Shown here in pieces: positions 48,128-53,466 of a DNA stretch of 53,611 bases. Source of the stretch: an uncultured Ectothiorhodospiraceae bacterium (lineage in GTDB: Bacteria > Pseudomonadota > Gammaproteobacteria > Nitrococcales > Nitrococcaceae); assembly GCA_913056385.1 (NCBI GenBank), contig CAJXND010000008.1:1-53611 (forward strand), given 5' to 3'. The position numbers and the translations under genes are program-made. The notes beneath the pieces were generated by a model that worked only from the letters and a program-made list of their open reading frames with translations, did not search any database and was not told the origin of the DNA. Every line of letters begins with the position of its first letter. Within the stretch, counting starts at the first letter, position 1.

Positions 48128-48519
48128 GCATCGTCGGTATCGGCACGGATATCGTCGAGATAGCCCGCCTCGAGCGGATGCAGGCCGACCACGGCGAGCG
48201 TCTTGCCGCCCGGCTGCTGGCCCCCAGCGAATGGCCCGGCTACCGGGGCGCGTCCTCCAGCGGTCCGGGCGAGGCGGCTGCGTTTCTGGCGCGACGCTTT
48301 GCCGCCAAGGAGGCGGCGGCCAAGGCTCTCGGCTGCGGGATCGGCAGGGAGGCGGGTTTCCGCGATCTTCGGGTGGGCCATGACGAGACCGGTGCACCCG
48401 TGCTCACGTTCGATGGCCCGGCCGCCGGGCGGGCGGCGCGGCTGGGTGTTCAGACCGCGCATCTGAGCATCAGCGATGAGCGCCGCTACGCCATCGCCAT
48501 GGTGGTTCTCGAGCGCTAA
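48124..48519 (+). CDS. acpS: Holo-[acyl-carrier-protein] synthase
   Basis: AcpS transfers phosphopantetheine from CoA to acyl carrier protein. The 131-residue protein has the metal-binding D9 in GIGTDIVEI and E63 in [13 protein letters not shown]. The start is TTG at 48124, overlapping the pdxJ stop (TTGA); no ATG gives the conserved N-terminus [10 protein letters not shown]. Its stop TAA overlaps the stop of the convergent oxidoreductase gene (48516-48519). Confidence 0.94.
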
Positions 48520-51500
48520 CCCGTCTCCGCCTCTGGCAGGACCTGCTCCAGCCACTGGGCGTTCAACCGGTCGCTGAGGCGGTTCTGCTGCTGACGGGCG
48601 GAGAGATTGTCCAGATCGATCCAGGTCAGTGGCTGGTCCTGGCCCGCACAGGAGAACACCGGTCGCGTGCGCTCTCCCGTCTCGGGGTCGATCTGCCACT
48701 GCAGGCACTGGGCACAGACGCCCTGCATCATGCACTGCATTGGGCTGCCGACGGTCCCGAATGCATCGCAGCCCTCCGCCACCCGTCCGGCCAGTTCGCC
48801 GCGGACGGCATGCTGGAAGCCCTTGAGCAGTCCCGTGCCGCCCATGACCATGATCCGATCGACATCCGACAGCGGGATACCGCCCTGCGCGGGGCCGATT
48901 TCGCCGGCGCCGTAGCGCTTGACCACATCGATCATGTCGGTGGCCTGCAGGCTCACGTCCTGCGGCCGTCGGGCCTCGATCAGCTCATCCTTCGCGGTAC
49001 ACCAGATAATCTGATCGGCCCCGGCCTCCAGCTCGTCCTGGTGGTCGACATCGCCGGCACCGCCGAAGGCCGCTACATAGAGAACGCGATTGCCTGCGGC
49101 CCGCAGCGCCGCACCGATGTCGAGCATCACGGCGGCACCCCAGCGGCCGGCCACGACCATGATCGTACGGTCCGTGGGCATGTCCGTCGGTGCGCCGGTC
49201 GGCCCCATGAGGACCAGCGGATCACCTGGCTGCAGGCGTCCGACGAGCCGGGGGCCGGCTCCCCACTGCAGTACCATCAGGCGGATGCAGTCGTCCCGGA
49301 CGCCGGTGCCCGAGACGGTGATCAGCGGGATCTGCAGCCGGGTGTCCTGCACCACCGGCGACAGTGACTCGAATGTCTGCAGCCGGAAGAACTGCCCGGC
49401 GCGGAAATTGCGCGCCGCCATCGGCGCCCGCACCCAGATCTCCACCATGGCGGGGTTGTCCCGACGAACCTCGACCACCCGGGCGGTGAGCAGATCATCC
49501 ATGCGGTTCATGAAGTCGGCGTGGGACGCATTGCTGCCGGGTGCCGCATGGGCCATGGCGGCCTCCACATAGGGATAAGTCCGCATACCGGAGGCGATGG
49601 CCTTGACCACGCTGCCGTGGAAGGCCGGGTGGGTGTCGCCGATAAAGGTGACCCGACGACCTCCCTCGTTATAGGAGGTAAAGGGACCGAACACCTTCGA
49701 CTTGCAGTGCTCGGCATCGTCCACGGGCTCCAGTCCCTGGTCGGTGGGCGTATGGGCGAGGAAGTGATTGCCGTCGAGCCTGAAGGTTTCGTGGTGCTCG
49801 CGTTCGTAAATCGTGTTGGGCACGGTGCCCGCGGCGATGAAAATGGCCCGGGCGGGGAGGCGGCGCTCGGCGCCCGTCGGTGCCCAGTGACCCTCGCGAT
49901 GCGTGAGCTCGCGGCAGACGAGGGCACTGACATGCTCATGTTCATCCACCTCGGCGTGGAGTGGCTCGAGCCCCTCGGCATAGTAGAGCGCTTCCTCCGT
50001 GGCCTTGATCACCTCTTCGTGGTTGCGTACGTAGGCGGGTGAATCGGTCATGCCCTTGCGGTAGGCCACGGTGACCCCGCCCCAGGCGCGAATGAGCGGG
50101 TTGAAATCGGGTTCACGGTCCTCGGCGGCGGCCCTGGCCCGCTCTTCGCGGATGGCCACGCCATGCTCGACGAATTCCGCCAGGGTGGTCTGGTCCTCGT
50201 CGTTCATGCCAGCCGTGACGGCGTCGGTGCCGAGTTGCGCCGAGAGCCGTTCGTAGCGCTCCAGGATCTTCTCGACCTGCTTGACGTAATACGCCTGGAC
50301 CTCGGTGGCGGTGTCGATGCCGGTCAGTCCTCCGCCGACGACCACGGCGGGCAGCCGGACCTGCAGGCTCGCCAGGCTTGATGCCTTGGCGGCACCGGTG
50401 AGCTGCAGCGCCATGAGAAAGTCGCTCGCCTGGCGCATGCCCCGGGCCAGGCTGTTGCCCATGTGTACCACCCGCGGCAGTCCGGCGCCGGTGGCGTTAA
50501 CGACATGATCAAAGCCGAGCGACCAGGCATCCTCCAGCGTGACCGTGCCGCCCAGCCGGGTGCCGCCGAAGACCCGGAAATTGTGTCGACGCGCCAGCGT
50601 GAGGTAGATGAGCTTGAGGAAATTCTTGTCCCAGCGCACGGTGATCCCGTACTCGGCGACACCGCCGAAGCCCAGCAGGATGCGCTCGTCGAGATCCTCC
50701 TGCAGATCGGCCCAGGATTTTACCGGTGCATCGAGCAGCTCGGCCGGGAGCGGCTCGATCTTGAGCCCGTCGATGCCCACCACGGCCGTGCCGTTCATGG
50801 TGAGATGATGCGCCATGGTGAAGCCGGCCGGCCCCATGCCGGCGACCAGCACGCGTCGGTTGTTGTCGGCGCGCTGGATGTACTGCTCTCGCCGCAGCGG
50901 GTTCCAGCGGGTCAGCAGGTGATAGAGCTCCACGCCCCAGGTGAGGTCGAGACTGTCCGTGAGCACGCGGGTCTCGATCTGCGGGATGTTGACCGGGTCC
51001 TGCTTCTGGTAGATGCAGCCCTTCATGCAGTCGTTGCAGATGCGATGCCCGGTGGCGGGGACCATCGGATTGTCGACCATGATCATGGCCAGCGCGGCGA
51101 GGTTGTAGCCATCGCGGCGCAGGACATGCATCTCGGAGATCTTTTCCTCCAGCGGACAGCCGGTGAGCGTGACGCCCAGCGGGTCCACCTTGAAGCCGAG
51201 CTCGGGCTGGGCCTTCTTCTCCGGGAAGCCGCGGGAGCAGAAATCGCCCTCGTGATCGTGGCAGTAGATGCAGTAGTGGATCTCGCTCTGTACGTCACGA
51301 CTGTCCATGCGGCCATCGGTCAGCGAAAAGCCGTCGCGGTGACGCCAGCGCTCGGGATCGGCCTGCCGCCGACCCACACCGTCTACTTCCACGGTCTCGG
51401 TGGGCACCAGATCGAAGTGGTCAACCCGCTCGGGGAGTCGGAAGCTCGCCCAGCCCCGCACCCGCGCCTGGCCAACGGCTGTCTGACGGGCAAGCTTGCA

Positions 51501-52040
51501 CCAGGCGGTGAGTGTCTCGATGGCATCGGCGTTGGCTGCTTCGTCCTCCAGTAGCGCCATGCCGAAACGCGCAATGGCACGCTCCTCGTCGTCGTTCTCA
51601 ACGTATCCGAGACTCGCGCGTACCGCGGCATCGAGTTCCTCGAAGGAATGCTCGACCGGGCGGCGGTGTTTCTTGACGCGGCGCTGGACGAAGGCCTGCT
51701 TGAACTGCATGACCACGTCGTCCGCCAGGATCGATTCACGCAGTGCATTCAGCTCGGATTCGATACCGAACAGCCGGCCGATGAAGGTCTCGACATGCGG
51801 CCCGAGCTCGATCAGCAGTTCGCTGTTTTCCGTGCCCGGCAGGTCGGTCTCGCGGCCGCGGTAGTCGAGGAGTCGGGCGGCCAGTCCGGGCGCGGCGGTT
51901 TGCAGGTCATCCAGAAAGGCCCGGTCGAGCCGGTAGAGGCCTTCCGGCGTCTGCAGGCTGGCGAAGTCGAGGCCGTAGCGGCCGAGGCTGACGTCGAGAT
52001 CCATAATCTCCCACGGATGCGGTGCGGATGGTGCCGTCAT
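48516..52040 (-). CDS. Giant fused iron-sulfur flavoprotein oxidoreductase
   Basis: This 1174-residue protein appears to join several redox modules. Residues 1-250 match nothing I know. Two cysteine clusters follow: C257, C260, C268, C295 and C335, C338, C342, resembling iron-sulfur ligands as in GltD-like proteins. Then come a GltD/pyridine-nucleotide-disulfide-type domain with nucleotide folds VLVAGMGPAG (397-406) and VVVGGGLTGID (566-576), an FAD segment near FIGDTHP (799-805), and a C-terminal PyrK-like unit: flavin-binding barrel (about 850-945), NAD domain (about 955-1085) and a 2Fe-2S motif C1103, C1109, C1112, C1131. It could move electrons between NAD(P)H and another carrier, possibly bifurcating. 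The start at 52040 lacks a good ribosome site; ATG 52004 has GGGAG three bases before it. It lies 55 bases after xseA on the same strand. Confidence 0.85.
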   Translation of the reverse strand: MTAPSAPHPWEIMDLDVSLGRYGLDFASLQTPEGLYRLDRAFLDDLQTAAPGLAARLLDYRGRETDLPGTENSELLIELGPHVETFIGRLFGIESELNALRESILADDVVMQFKQAFVQRRVKKHRRPVEHSFEELDAAVRASLGYVENDDEERAIARFGMALLEDEAANADAIETLTAWCKLARQTAVGQARVRGWASFRLPERVDHFDLVPTETVEVDGVGRRQADPERWRHRDGFSLTDGRMDSRDVQSEIHYCIYCHDHEGDFCSRGFPEKKAQPELGFKVDPLGVTLTGCPLEEKISEMHVLRRDGYNLAALAMIMVDNPMVPATGHRICNDCMKGCIYQKQDPVNIPQIETRVLTDSLDLTWGVELYHLLTRWNPLRREQYIQRADNNRRVLVAGMGPAGFTMAHHLTMNGTAVVGIDGLKIEPLPAELLDAPVKSWADLQEDLDERILLGFGGVAEYGITVRWDKNFLKLIYLTLARRHNFRVFGGTRLGGTVTLEDAWSLGFDHVVNATGAGLPRVVHMGNSLARGMRQASDFLMALQLTGAAKASSLASLQVRLPAVVVGGGLTGIDTATEVQAYYVKQVEKILERYERLSAQLGTDAVTAGMNDEDQTTLAEFVEHGVAIREERARAAAEDREPDFNPLIRAWGGVTVAYRKGMTDSPAYVRNHEEVIKATEEALYYAEGLEPLHAEVDEHEHVSALVCRELTHREGHWAPTGAERRLPARAIFIAAGTVPNTIYEREHHETFRLDGNHFLAHTPTDQGLEPVDDAEHCKSKVFGPFTSYNEGGRRVTFIGDTHPAFHGSVVKAIASGMRTYPYVEAAMAHAAPGSNASHADFMNRMDDLLTARVVEVRRDNPAMVEIWVRAPMAARNFRAGQFFRLQTFESLSPVVQDTRLQIPLITVSGTGVRDDCIRLMVLQWGAGPRLVGRLQPGDPLVLMGPTGAPTDMPTDRTIMVVAGRWGAAVMLDIGAALRAAGNRVLYVAAFGGAGDVDHQDELEAGADQIIWCTAKDELIEARRPQDVSLQATDMIDVVKRYGAGEIGPAQGGIPLSDVDRIMVMGGTGLLKGFQHAVRGELAGRVAEGCDAFGTVGSPMQCMMQGVCAQCLQWQIDPETGERTRPVFSCAGQDQPLTWIDLDNLSARQQQNRLSDRLNAQWLEQVLPEAETG

Positions 52041-52095
52041 GATGCGCGTGAGGCGCCGATGCAACAAGCCAGACGCGATGCGGTTTTGCGCTGGA

Positions 52096-53466
52096 TCAGT
52101 TCTTGCCGGTGAGCGGCGTATCGTCGTCATGACCCTCGACCCGGGCCATGAGTATCCCCTTGCCGAGCCGGGCCTGAATGGGCTCGCCGACACTCACCGA
52201 GGATGCATCGCGGAGGATGGTGCCATCGGAGGCCTGCTGGACGATGGCGTATCCGCGATGGAGCGTCGCAAGGGGACTGACACTCTCCAGCGCACGCCCG
52301 TTCTCCTGCAGCCGTGCCCGTCGCAGCGCGATCGTCTCCTGCATGGCGCGCTCGAGCCGCTGGCCGAGATGGGCGCGATGGGTGCCCAGGCGCTGGATGA
52401 GATGGCTCGGCGGGTTGGTCCGCAGTCGCCGATCCAGATTCCGCAGGGCCGTCGACCGCCCGGAAAGCATTGCCTGAACGGCGCGTGTCAGCCGCTGGTC
52501 GAGTTCATCGAGGCGCTGCGTGCGATCCCGCAACCGGCGGCCAGGGTGTTGTGCCGCGAGTCGCCGGTCCAGGCCCGTGAGCGTCTCGGCGCGTGCGCGC
52601 AGCGTTCGCGACAATGCCTGGCGCAGACGATCGGCCCCCCGGGCAAGCGTTCCACTCAACGCCTCACCATCGGGTGACAGGCGCTCGGCAGCCGCGGACG
52701 GCGTTGCCGCACGCTCATCCGCCACCAGATCGGTGATGGCGATGTCCACCTCGTGGCCGACGGCGCTGATCACCGGCAACGAGCAGCGATGGATGGCGCG
52801 GGCGACCACCTCCTCGTTGAACGCCTGCAGGTCCTCCAGTGAACCGCCACCGCGGCCGACCACCAGCACATCCACCTCGTTGCGCAGATCGGCCAGATCA
52901 ATGGCCCTGGCGATCTCCCCGGCGGCGCCGTCGCCCTGCACCCGAACCGGGTAGATCAGGATGGGCAGTGCGGGGAAGCGCCGATGCAGCACGCTGATCA
53001 CATCGCGTATGGCCGCGCCCGTCGGCGATGTGATCACACCGATCCGTTTCGGCAGGGCTGGAATCGGGCGCTTGAGGGCTGGATCAAAGAGGCCCTCCTG
53101 GTCAAGGCGTTGCTTGAGTGCCTCGAAGGCCCGCTGCAGGGCGCCGTCGCCGGCGGGCTCCATATGCTCGGCGATCAGCTGGTATTCCCCGCGCGGGGCG
53201 TACAGGCCGATGCGGGCCCGCAGCCGCACCTGGTCGCCGTTTTCGGGGGTGAAGCGCAGGCGCATCGCGCGGTTGCGGAACAACGCACAGCGCACCTGTG
53301 ATTCGGCATCCTTCAGCGTGAAATAGGCGTGACCGGAACGCGGGCGGGCGAGGTTCGAGATCTCGCCCTCGACCCATATCAACGGGAAGGCCTGTTCCAG
53401 GAGCATGCGGACCTCCTGGTTCAGCCTCGAGACGCTGTAGATGTCCTGCCGCTCCGCTTCGCTCAT
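52096..53466 (-). CDS. xseA: Exodeoxyribonuclease VII large subunit
   Basis: XseA with XseB degrades single-stranded DNA in repair. The 456 residues contain the N-terminal OB-fold (about 10-105: YSVSRLNQEVRMLLEQAFPLIWVEGEISN), the catalytic core with GVITSPTGAAIRDV and VVGRGGGSLEDLQAFNEE (about 190-210), AVGHEVDIAITDLVAD, and a long coiled C-terminal part. ATG 53466 matches the family start; upstream in-frame starts are unlikely. The gene is divergent from guaB, the conserved arrangement. The oxidoreductase gene follows. Confidence 0.96.
   Translation of the reverse strand: MSEAERQDIYSVSRLNQEVRMLLEQAFPLIWVEGEISNLARPRSGHAYFTLKDAESQVRCALFRNRAMRLRFTPENGDQVRLRARIGLYAPRGEYQLIAEHMEPAGDGALQRAFEALKQRLDQEGLFDPALKRPIPALPKRIGVITSPTGAAIRDVISVLHRRFPALPILIYPVRVQGDGAAGEIARAIDLADLRNEVDVLVVGRGGGSLEDLQAFNEEVVARAIHRCSLPVISAVGHEVDIAITDLVADERAATPSAAAERLSPDGEALSGTLARGADRLRQALSRTLRARAETLTGLDRRLAAQHPGRRLRDRTQRLDELDQRLTRAVQAMLSGRSTALRNLDRRLRTNPPSHLIQRLGTHRAHLGQRLERAMQETIALRRARLQENGRALESVSPLATLHRGYAIVQQASDGTILRDASSVSVGEPIQARLGKGILMARVEGHDDDTPLTGKN

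Follow-up and report, generated by a model that had tools for sequence, protein, structure and literature searches.

Nfn-like in build: a single-chain bacterial protein family proposed to exchange electrons between pyridine nucleotides and ferredoxin

Nfn-type enzymes link NADH, NADPH and ferredoxin, and in oxygen-avoiding microbes they are normally split in two, a GltD-like NfnB (NfnI-L) and a PyrK-like NfnA (NfnI-S). The survey by Liang 2019 (PMC6405883) sorts Nfn into four patterns. One of them, the fused "pattern C" with a C-terminal PyrK-like part, occurs in Actinobacteria, Alphaproteobacteria and Gammaproteobacteria; the survey calls its properties uncharacterized and names a single aerobe with an Nfn homologue. 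AadN of Rhodopseudomonas palustris, like the protein described here, is a fused homologue in a proteobacterium, and genetic data support its part in ferredoxin electron transfer, but it follows pattern B, is at least 51% identical to PfNfnI and serves anaerobic aromatic degradation (PMC9973337). Here we analyze a gene in a 53,611-nucleotide stretch (contig CAJXND010000008.1; hereafter the window) from an uncultured Ectothiorhodospiraceae bacterium. The gene lies on the minus strand (48516..52040, as are all features below), from an ATG at 52040 to a stop at 48516; residues are numbered throughout by this 1174-residue version. Its product joins GltD-like and PyrK-like halves in one chain, in the order of pattern C. 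With a probability of about 0.6, we propose that it is a single-chain, Nfn-like NAD(P)H:ferredoxin oxidoreductase, with FdxA most likely its one-electron partner.

A sequence-only reading of the window had suggested the two halves, and both align with Nfn by profile and by fold. When a family profile was searched against PDB sequences (hmmsearch), the best matches were NfnI-L (5jca_L, 3.8e-24) and NfnI-S (5jca_S, 1.1e-18); GltD (7mfm_I, 1.3e-9) and PyrK (1ep3_B, 3.3e-8) fell behind both. An AlphaFold2 model of the whole protein, with 38 aligned sequences as input, had a mean predicted local distance difference test score (pLDDT) of 88.6 and a predicted template modeling score (pTM) of 0.89. 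Residues 203-831 of the model (49548..51434) superposed on NfnB/NfnI-L of P. furiosus (5jfc_L; VIA-align Z 28.1, root-mean-square deviation [rmsd] 2.4, 442 of 463 residues), and residues 851-1173 on NfnA/NfnI-S (5jca_S; Z 30.3, rmsd 1.9, 275 of 279 residues). Residues 845-1167 (48540..49508) also matched 4ylf_A with Z 28.1. GltD of glutamate synthase (Z 26.3) and PyrK of dihydroorotate dehydrogenase B (Z 25.7) were lesser matches. Profile search and predicted model thus both find an NfnB fold and an NfnA fold in one chain. The first is predicted to hold two [4Fe-4S] sites, a flavin adenine dinucleotide site (b-FAD) and an NAD(P)H domain, and the second the a-FAD, NAD and [2Fe-2S] regions.

Conservation was scored over 119 distinct relatives, taken from the 134 sequences longer than 900 residues among 138 in all. 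The two cysteine clusters named in the sequence-only reading are present as described: C257, C260, C268, C295, C335, C338 and C342 toward the N terminus, and C1103, C1109, C1112 and C1131 toward the C terminus. All eleven are kept in 117/119 relatives. The N-terminal seven are found in 118, the exception being a gene with a 100-N assembly gap inside it (L125), and the C-terminal four also in 118. The exception to the latter, L039, matches the query only up to residue 835, without the [2Fe-2S] cysteines; its C-terminal end is a frameshift or a truncated form. E356, R469, K472, the GxGPAG glycines, G569, G571 and G801-D802 are invariant. The flavin-binding residues of the b-FAD half, on which the earlier proposal had been made to depend, are therefore in place in every relative (G401, G403, G406, G801-D802 and the N5-type Arg).

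These residues map onto the proposed cofactor sites of Nfn. C257-x2-C260-x7-C268 (51237..51272; 118/119) would provide ligands of the distal [4Fe-4S] cluster, with C342 probably the fourth. This assignment follows motif order and fold; aligned by sequence to 4ylf_B, this first motif gave no significant match. C295, C335, C338 and E356 (50973..51158, a stretch that also includes C342) are proposed, from alignment to NfnI-L and from conservation, to ligate the proximal [4Fe-4S] cluster as a Glu(Cys)3 set. In that alignment, E356 falls on the Glu of GKLERF in NfnI-L. Comparison with Gln156 of dihydropyrimidine dehydrogenase leads us to infer that the Glu of this ERF stretch is the Glu ligand of Nfn. 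A Glu ligand on one [4Fe-4S] cluster of Nfn is described in PMC8097209 and PMC10482914, one of which names the proximal cluster. The cysteine spacing of the [4Fe-4S] sites differs from the Nfn motifs given in PMC6405883.

GMGPAG, the putative FAD-binding loop of b-FAD (residues 401-406; 50823..50840), has G401, G403, P404 and G406 in 119/119 and A405 in 117. GGGLTGID, the predicted NAD(P)H Rossmann loop (residues 569-576; 50313..50336), has G569, G571 and D576 in all. The positions of the Arg pair that Nfn uses for the NADP 2'-phosphate are partly kept (R661 in 117/119, K or R at 662 in 106/119). R469 (50634..50636; 119/119) aligns in NfnI-L with the Arg of FRLPK, which we take to be the Arg at flavin N5 of Nfn. 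All Nfn have an Arg at N5 (PMC6405883), but this residue alone is not diagnostic: the non-bifurcating StnC has R239, discussed at its FAD N5 (PMC10482914). In the PyrK-like half, C1103-x5-C1109-x2-C1112-x18-C1131 (48648..48734; 118/119 rows) is a proposed all-Cys [2Fe-2S] site that would replace the Asp(Cys)3 site of Nfn. The Nfn motif is DGTGMCGxCRx10C, with Asp as a ligand and a potential of about +80 mV, and in Nfn 14-15 Å separate the b-FAD from the [2Fe-2S] cluster (PMC6405883).

The window protein shares with NfnAB/NfnI of T. maritima (4ylf) and P. furiosus (5jca/5jfc) both folds, the Fe-S cysteines with the Glu, the N5 Arg and the GxGPAG and GGG loops. It differs in being one chain with the PyrK-like half C-terminal, in a helical N-terminal domain, in an insertion, helical for the most part, within the NAD(P)H domain, in Cys for Asp at the [2Fe-2S] site and in a degenerate a-FAD motif. 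The insertion (residues 577-655; 50076..50312), delimited by secondary structure and alignment gaps, aligns with neither NfnI-L nor PRK12779 proteins. Two defining features of Nfn, the [2Fe-2S] Asp motif and the a-FAD motif ERxPxT, were looked for and not found. Hence, we conclude that the protein is Nfn-like in build, yet not to be filed as Nfn. StnC and the A subunit of NfnABC (8oh5_C, 9bov_A, 9n5u_A) are likewise large chains with an NfnB-like part (StnC: Z 24.3, rmsd 2.3, 395 residues), but StnC is fused to a NuoG-like rather than a PyrK-like part, and the bifurcating module lies elsewhere (PMC10482914).

Is the window protein simply a pattern C Nfn? We infer that the pattern C group corresponds to PRK12779 (NF009415), a model that the window protein matches with 66 bits against a cut-off of 1519. 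PRK12779 was found above cut-off in 8/398 Pseudomonadota genomes, all of one genus, and in 0/114 genomes from the window's class. Aligned with hhalign, the family and PRK12779 match with E 8.7e-39 over 723 columns (family columns 255-1168), with 24.5% identity to PRK12779 proteins over the best stretch. Unlike the window family, the PRK12779 proteins examined retain RVCPQEHQC, YGIPEFRLP and VDATGMCGAC, the Nfn motifs in their classical form, including the Asp. The N-terminal domain showed no relation to the N-terminal part of about 200 residues of PRK12779 itself (hhalign probability 0.9%, with a shallow PRK12779 alignment of 8 close rows). Because PRK12779 keeps the classical motifs and the N-terminal parts do not align, we take the window family to be a separate, diverged branch.

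Gene neighborhoods of the relatives suggest electron exchange with ferredoxin. We surveyed 141 loci (123 distinct), 18 of which are short, with about 1.5 kb of flank. For genome-level counts we used 53 of the 71 gene-bearing genomes, with at least 95% completeness (G050 and G189 also qualify but were left out). The gene-lacking set was every fifth, or 60, of the 298 genomes without a match at E <= 1e-100; 53 of these 60 are complete. FdxA (PF11953) is encoded in 52/53 gene-bearing genomes, twice in the window's own. In 6/53 it is no more than 4 kb from the gene, against 0.20 expected (G004, G027, G173, G281, G280 and the second copy of G026); counted as three arrangements, this proximity has a chance of about 0.001.

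The first arrangement is a same-strand cassette of an AprA-like flavoprotein (PRK08275, above cut-off), a small Fe-S protein (a 77-residue dicluster protein), a HEAT protein, FdxA and the gene, seen in L009, L035 and L061. There FdxA is the next upstream gene on the same strand, 93-185 bases off. A GntR gene stands ahead of the cassette in L061, where an OprD-type porin is also annotated, and in A. caldus the cassette is on a plasmid. L097, the second copy of G026, carries an in-frame stop, and its cassette stands 3-5 kb from the gene. L009, L061 and L097 also have a nitrate/sulfonate-type ATP-binding cassette (ABC) permease close to the gene (the L035 flank is too short to tell); the permease's matches to SaoP, NtrB, SsuC and TauC are all below cut-off. 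The cassette flavoprotein presumably resembles AsfA, and an arylsulfonate (asf) reading of this acidophile cassette is a lead only.

The second arrangement, with parts that vary, comprises an opposite-strand FdxA, a BolA-like gene, a Grx4-type glutaredoxin, the gene and NadA, in loci of Legionellales/Coxiellaceae type; several also have a 2Fe-2S ferredoxin-like gene. The Grx4-type gene is 0.3-1.8 kb upstream on the same strand in 9/141 loci (13 in all), and NadA is at most 1 kb downstream in 9/141 (on the opposite strand in L150). BolA-like matches number 11, or 9 without those of L097 and L136, which are located at the FdxA gene. The Grx4, BolA, NadA and PntA families were each assigned from one scanned example; the BolA-like one reached 41.6 bits where the cut-off is 137, and the one for PntA likewise fell short of its cut-offs. 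The third arrangement, from an Acidithiobacillus genome (L008 = L141), has FdxA downstream of the gene and convergent with it.

The window's genome encodes a separate GltD of 468 residues and PntB, and three COX1-type oxidase matches in it are consistent with the probable aerobe supposed from the sequence alone. The POR_N domain of 2-oxoacid:ferredoxin oxidoreductases had no match in that genome (the search did not extend to Rnf and Fix complexes). NAD(P)H is therefore the likely source of reduced ferredoxin in this organism. We also considered that the protein might substitute for PntAB, and rejected this. PntB is no rarer in gene-bearing genomes (40/53, versus 32/53 complete gene-lacking genomes, 34/60 of all; p 0.14), and in two f122 genomes pntA and pntB lie downstream of the gene on the same strand (a third f122 locus is a short contig).

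In the mechanism that we propose, the GltD-like part would accept two electrons from NADPH on its b-FAD. One of them would pass through the Glu(Cys)3 [4Fe-4S] cluster (C295, C335, C338, E356) and then the outer [4Fe-4S] cluster (C257, C260, C268, C342) to FdxA; the other would go by the C-terminal [2Fe-2S] cluster to a-FAD and on to a two-electron acceptor, which may be NAD+. A high NADPH level could be maintained by PntAB. The protein would probably be used for Fe-S-dependent biosynthesis and maintenance and, in the one acidophile cassette, possibly for service to the AprA-like flavoprotein beside the sulfonate/nitrate-type ABC transporter. Cofactor content, direction, nucleotide specificity and partnership with FdxA are all putative here; they are built on a predicted two-half fold and on residues and neighbors observed in the relatives.

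Several observations weigh against this proposal. The column of the Nfn [2Fe-2S] Asp is Met in 114/119 relatives, with a Cys one residue earlier in 118/119. The a-FAD motif ERxPxT is degenerate: residues 900-910 of the window protein read TRLQIPLITVS, and in a loosely aligned loop, column 905 is E in 70/119 and P in 46/119 (P905 in the window), with S or T at 910 in 99/119. The predicted model contains no cofactors, and its pLDDT dips at the Fe-S regions (66-77 at 251-270, 69-75 at 321-350, 71 at 1101-1110). FdxA is also found in 42/53 complete gene-lacking genomes (48/60 of all; Fisher p 0.004, uncorrected for kinship), and because most gene-lacking genomes have it, its presence alone is weak evidence. 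FdxA is within 4 kb in 15/141 loci (14/123 distinct), so most loci have no FdxA nearby. The window's own neighbors, named by eye as xseA, pdxJ and acpS, are uninformative on function. Finally, we found no biochemistry on the family in the open-licence literature.

The altered sites in the PyrK-like half could instead mark a non-bifurcating NADPH:ferredoxin reductase like P. furiosus NfnII, with that half structural or using an acceptor other than NAD+. Its NAD loop varies among the 119 relatives, its a-FAD motif is degenerate, and the Asp ligand tied to the +80 mV [2Fe-2S] cluster (PMC6405883) is replaced by Cys. There are precedents as well: NfnII, itself a homologue of Nfn, has an altered NAD site and shows no NAD-dependent activity (PMC6405883, PMC8097209), and StnC lost bifurcation while keeping the NfnB-like fold (PMC10482914). 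A purely structural remnant, however, would need neither C-terminal cysteines kept in 118/119 relatives nor a whole PyrK-like fold (Z 30.3), and we regard this alternative as unlikely, if a serious contender. Bifurcation by the window protein is possible. We are rather doubtful of the most ambitious version, in which an electron-bifurcating enzyme of oxygen-respiring bacteria, tuned otherwise than Nfn by its all-Cys [2Fe-2S] site, would work with PntAB so that membrane energy drives the supply of low-potential FdxA to Fe-S enzymes.

Perhaps the protein needs no soluble ferredoxin at all? As a dedicated electron donor for Fe-S handling or NAD synthesis, it would dock to Grx4, BolA or NadA through its helical N-terminal domain. 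The Grx4-type and NadA genes at nine loci each, and the wide occurrence of that domain (below), speak for such a role. However, the arrangement is mostly that of one related group, the Legionellales/Coxiellaceae type, and probably reflects one ancestral event, and FdxA is present in the same cluster in most such loci. We consider this role improbable. The name of the nearest NCBIfam model offers a further function, glutamate synthase beta subunit or polyprenylphenol hydroxylase. This model, NF005128 (PRK06567; profile length 1031), is the best for the window protein (E 3.4e-178) and for the seven relatives scanned, but all eight fall below its curated cut-off of 1072 bits (594.7 for the window protein, 564-766 for the relatives). 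The glutamate synthase small-subunit model TIGR01317 gives 40.3 bits against a cut-off of 447.7. Since the genome has its own GltD, the window protein is not simply the glutamate synthase small subunit, and its C-terminal half is closest to NfnI-S. On these grounds we rejected this identity, which we find scarcely credible. We found no functional evidence behind the model name, which we conclude is misleading. An NAD(P)H:ferredoxin oxidoreductase of Nfn-like build remains our preferred reading.

The existence of PRK06567, and of fused Nfn of the same order in print (pattern C; PMC6405883), means that "undescribed," as the protein had been called, is too strong a word. Among Pfam domains, Pyr_redox_2 is above cut-off and Fer4_20 below. 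One scan of named genomes turned up relatives at 41 loci, and the titles of these records mention, among others, Ectothiorhodospiraceae, Acidithiobacillus, Acidiferrobacterales, Legionellales, Coxiellaceae, Methylovulum and Alphaproteobacteria such as Finniella; a 3.8-kb contig labeled Archangiaceae (L024) is possibly misbinned. The protein's nearest named relative comes from a Spiribacter metagenome genome (89%). A first set of 37 rows comprised the window protein and 36 of these 41 relatives, five fragments being left out; the later alignment had 38 rows. At E <= 1e-100, the gene occurs in 71/369 genomes sampled from the window's class, which we take to be Gammaproteobacteria; at E <= 1e-60, it occurs in 39/59 near relatives and 15/299 genomes of a draw from the phylum. 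One copy, on plasmid pTcM1 of A. caldus, is annotated "FAD-dependent oxidoreductase." Two copies have one in-frame stop (TAA in L097, the second copy of G026; TAG in L135, from G239) and are decaying or contain sequencing errors. Among the titles listed from the open-licence literature, none is a functional study of this branch, and there was no paper on "PRK06567." The family is widespread and apparently unstudied.

The frame given in the sequence-only reading was confirmed in position, on the minus strand, although a start at 52004 is more likely. An internal ATG at 52004 is preceded by GGGAG (GTGGGAGATTATG); no such site was seen ahead of the ATG at 52040. Met occupies the 52004 column in 22/119 relatives versus 3/119 at the 52040 column (row starts were chosen by script), and several close relatives start at, or align to, the 52004 Met. 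The GGGAG site and these starts favor a protein of about 1162 residues, so the true start is probably ATG 52004, as judged from sequence. The frame is open past both candidate starts (52004-52193), as far as a GTG at 52193 (1225 residues) and into the xseA-like gene, and start calls are uncertain for this reason. The xseA-like open reading frame (ORF) is 55 bases upstream on the same strand. The gene's stop overlaps the end of a plus-strand acpS-like ORF by 4 bases, and a pdxJ-like ORF precedes acpS. The assembly is 1.95 Mb. Given the 41 loci in named genomes and the eleven cysteines kept in 117/119 relatives, the ORF is not a chance one.

For the N terminus, the sequence-only reading had set apart 250 residues of unidentified fold. 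The domain proved shorter, about 200 residues and all helical (residues 13-200; 51441..52004), in a model of residues 1-232 (pLDDT 87.3, pTM 0.58). Modeled alone, residues 1-232 had no Foldseek hit with E <= 0.001, and the best VIA score against solved folds was Z 4.2; this does not prove that the predicted fold is new. The domain is covered to at least 60% of its length in 35/38 alignment rows, and the remaining three are short fragments.

A different setting was seen in seven loci (L030-L034, L038 and L042), where a TLC gene (ATP/ADP translocase, NTP/NDP exchange transporter) lies 74-201 bases upstream. Five are labeled Alphaproteobacteria or Finniella and two only Proteobacteria. In five of the seven, a DUF1003-like gene follows the family gene within 70 bases (one example scanned). 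This arrangement is possibly an operon of energy parasites.

Bifurcation of the Nfn type is regarded as a tool of anaerobes. Here, an Nfn-like protein is found as one chain in a bacterium equipped for oxygen respiration (COX1 was checked in one genome), and roughly one in five genomes sampled from the window's class carries the branch. If the enzyme does make reduced ferredoxin, this would explain the source of low-potential electrons in such bacteria. The changed [2Fe-2S] ligand, if real, would give a direct handle on whether the high potential of that cluster is needed for bifurcation, and a misleading glutamate synthase/polyprenylphenol hydroxylase name would be replaced.

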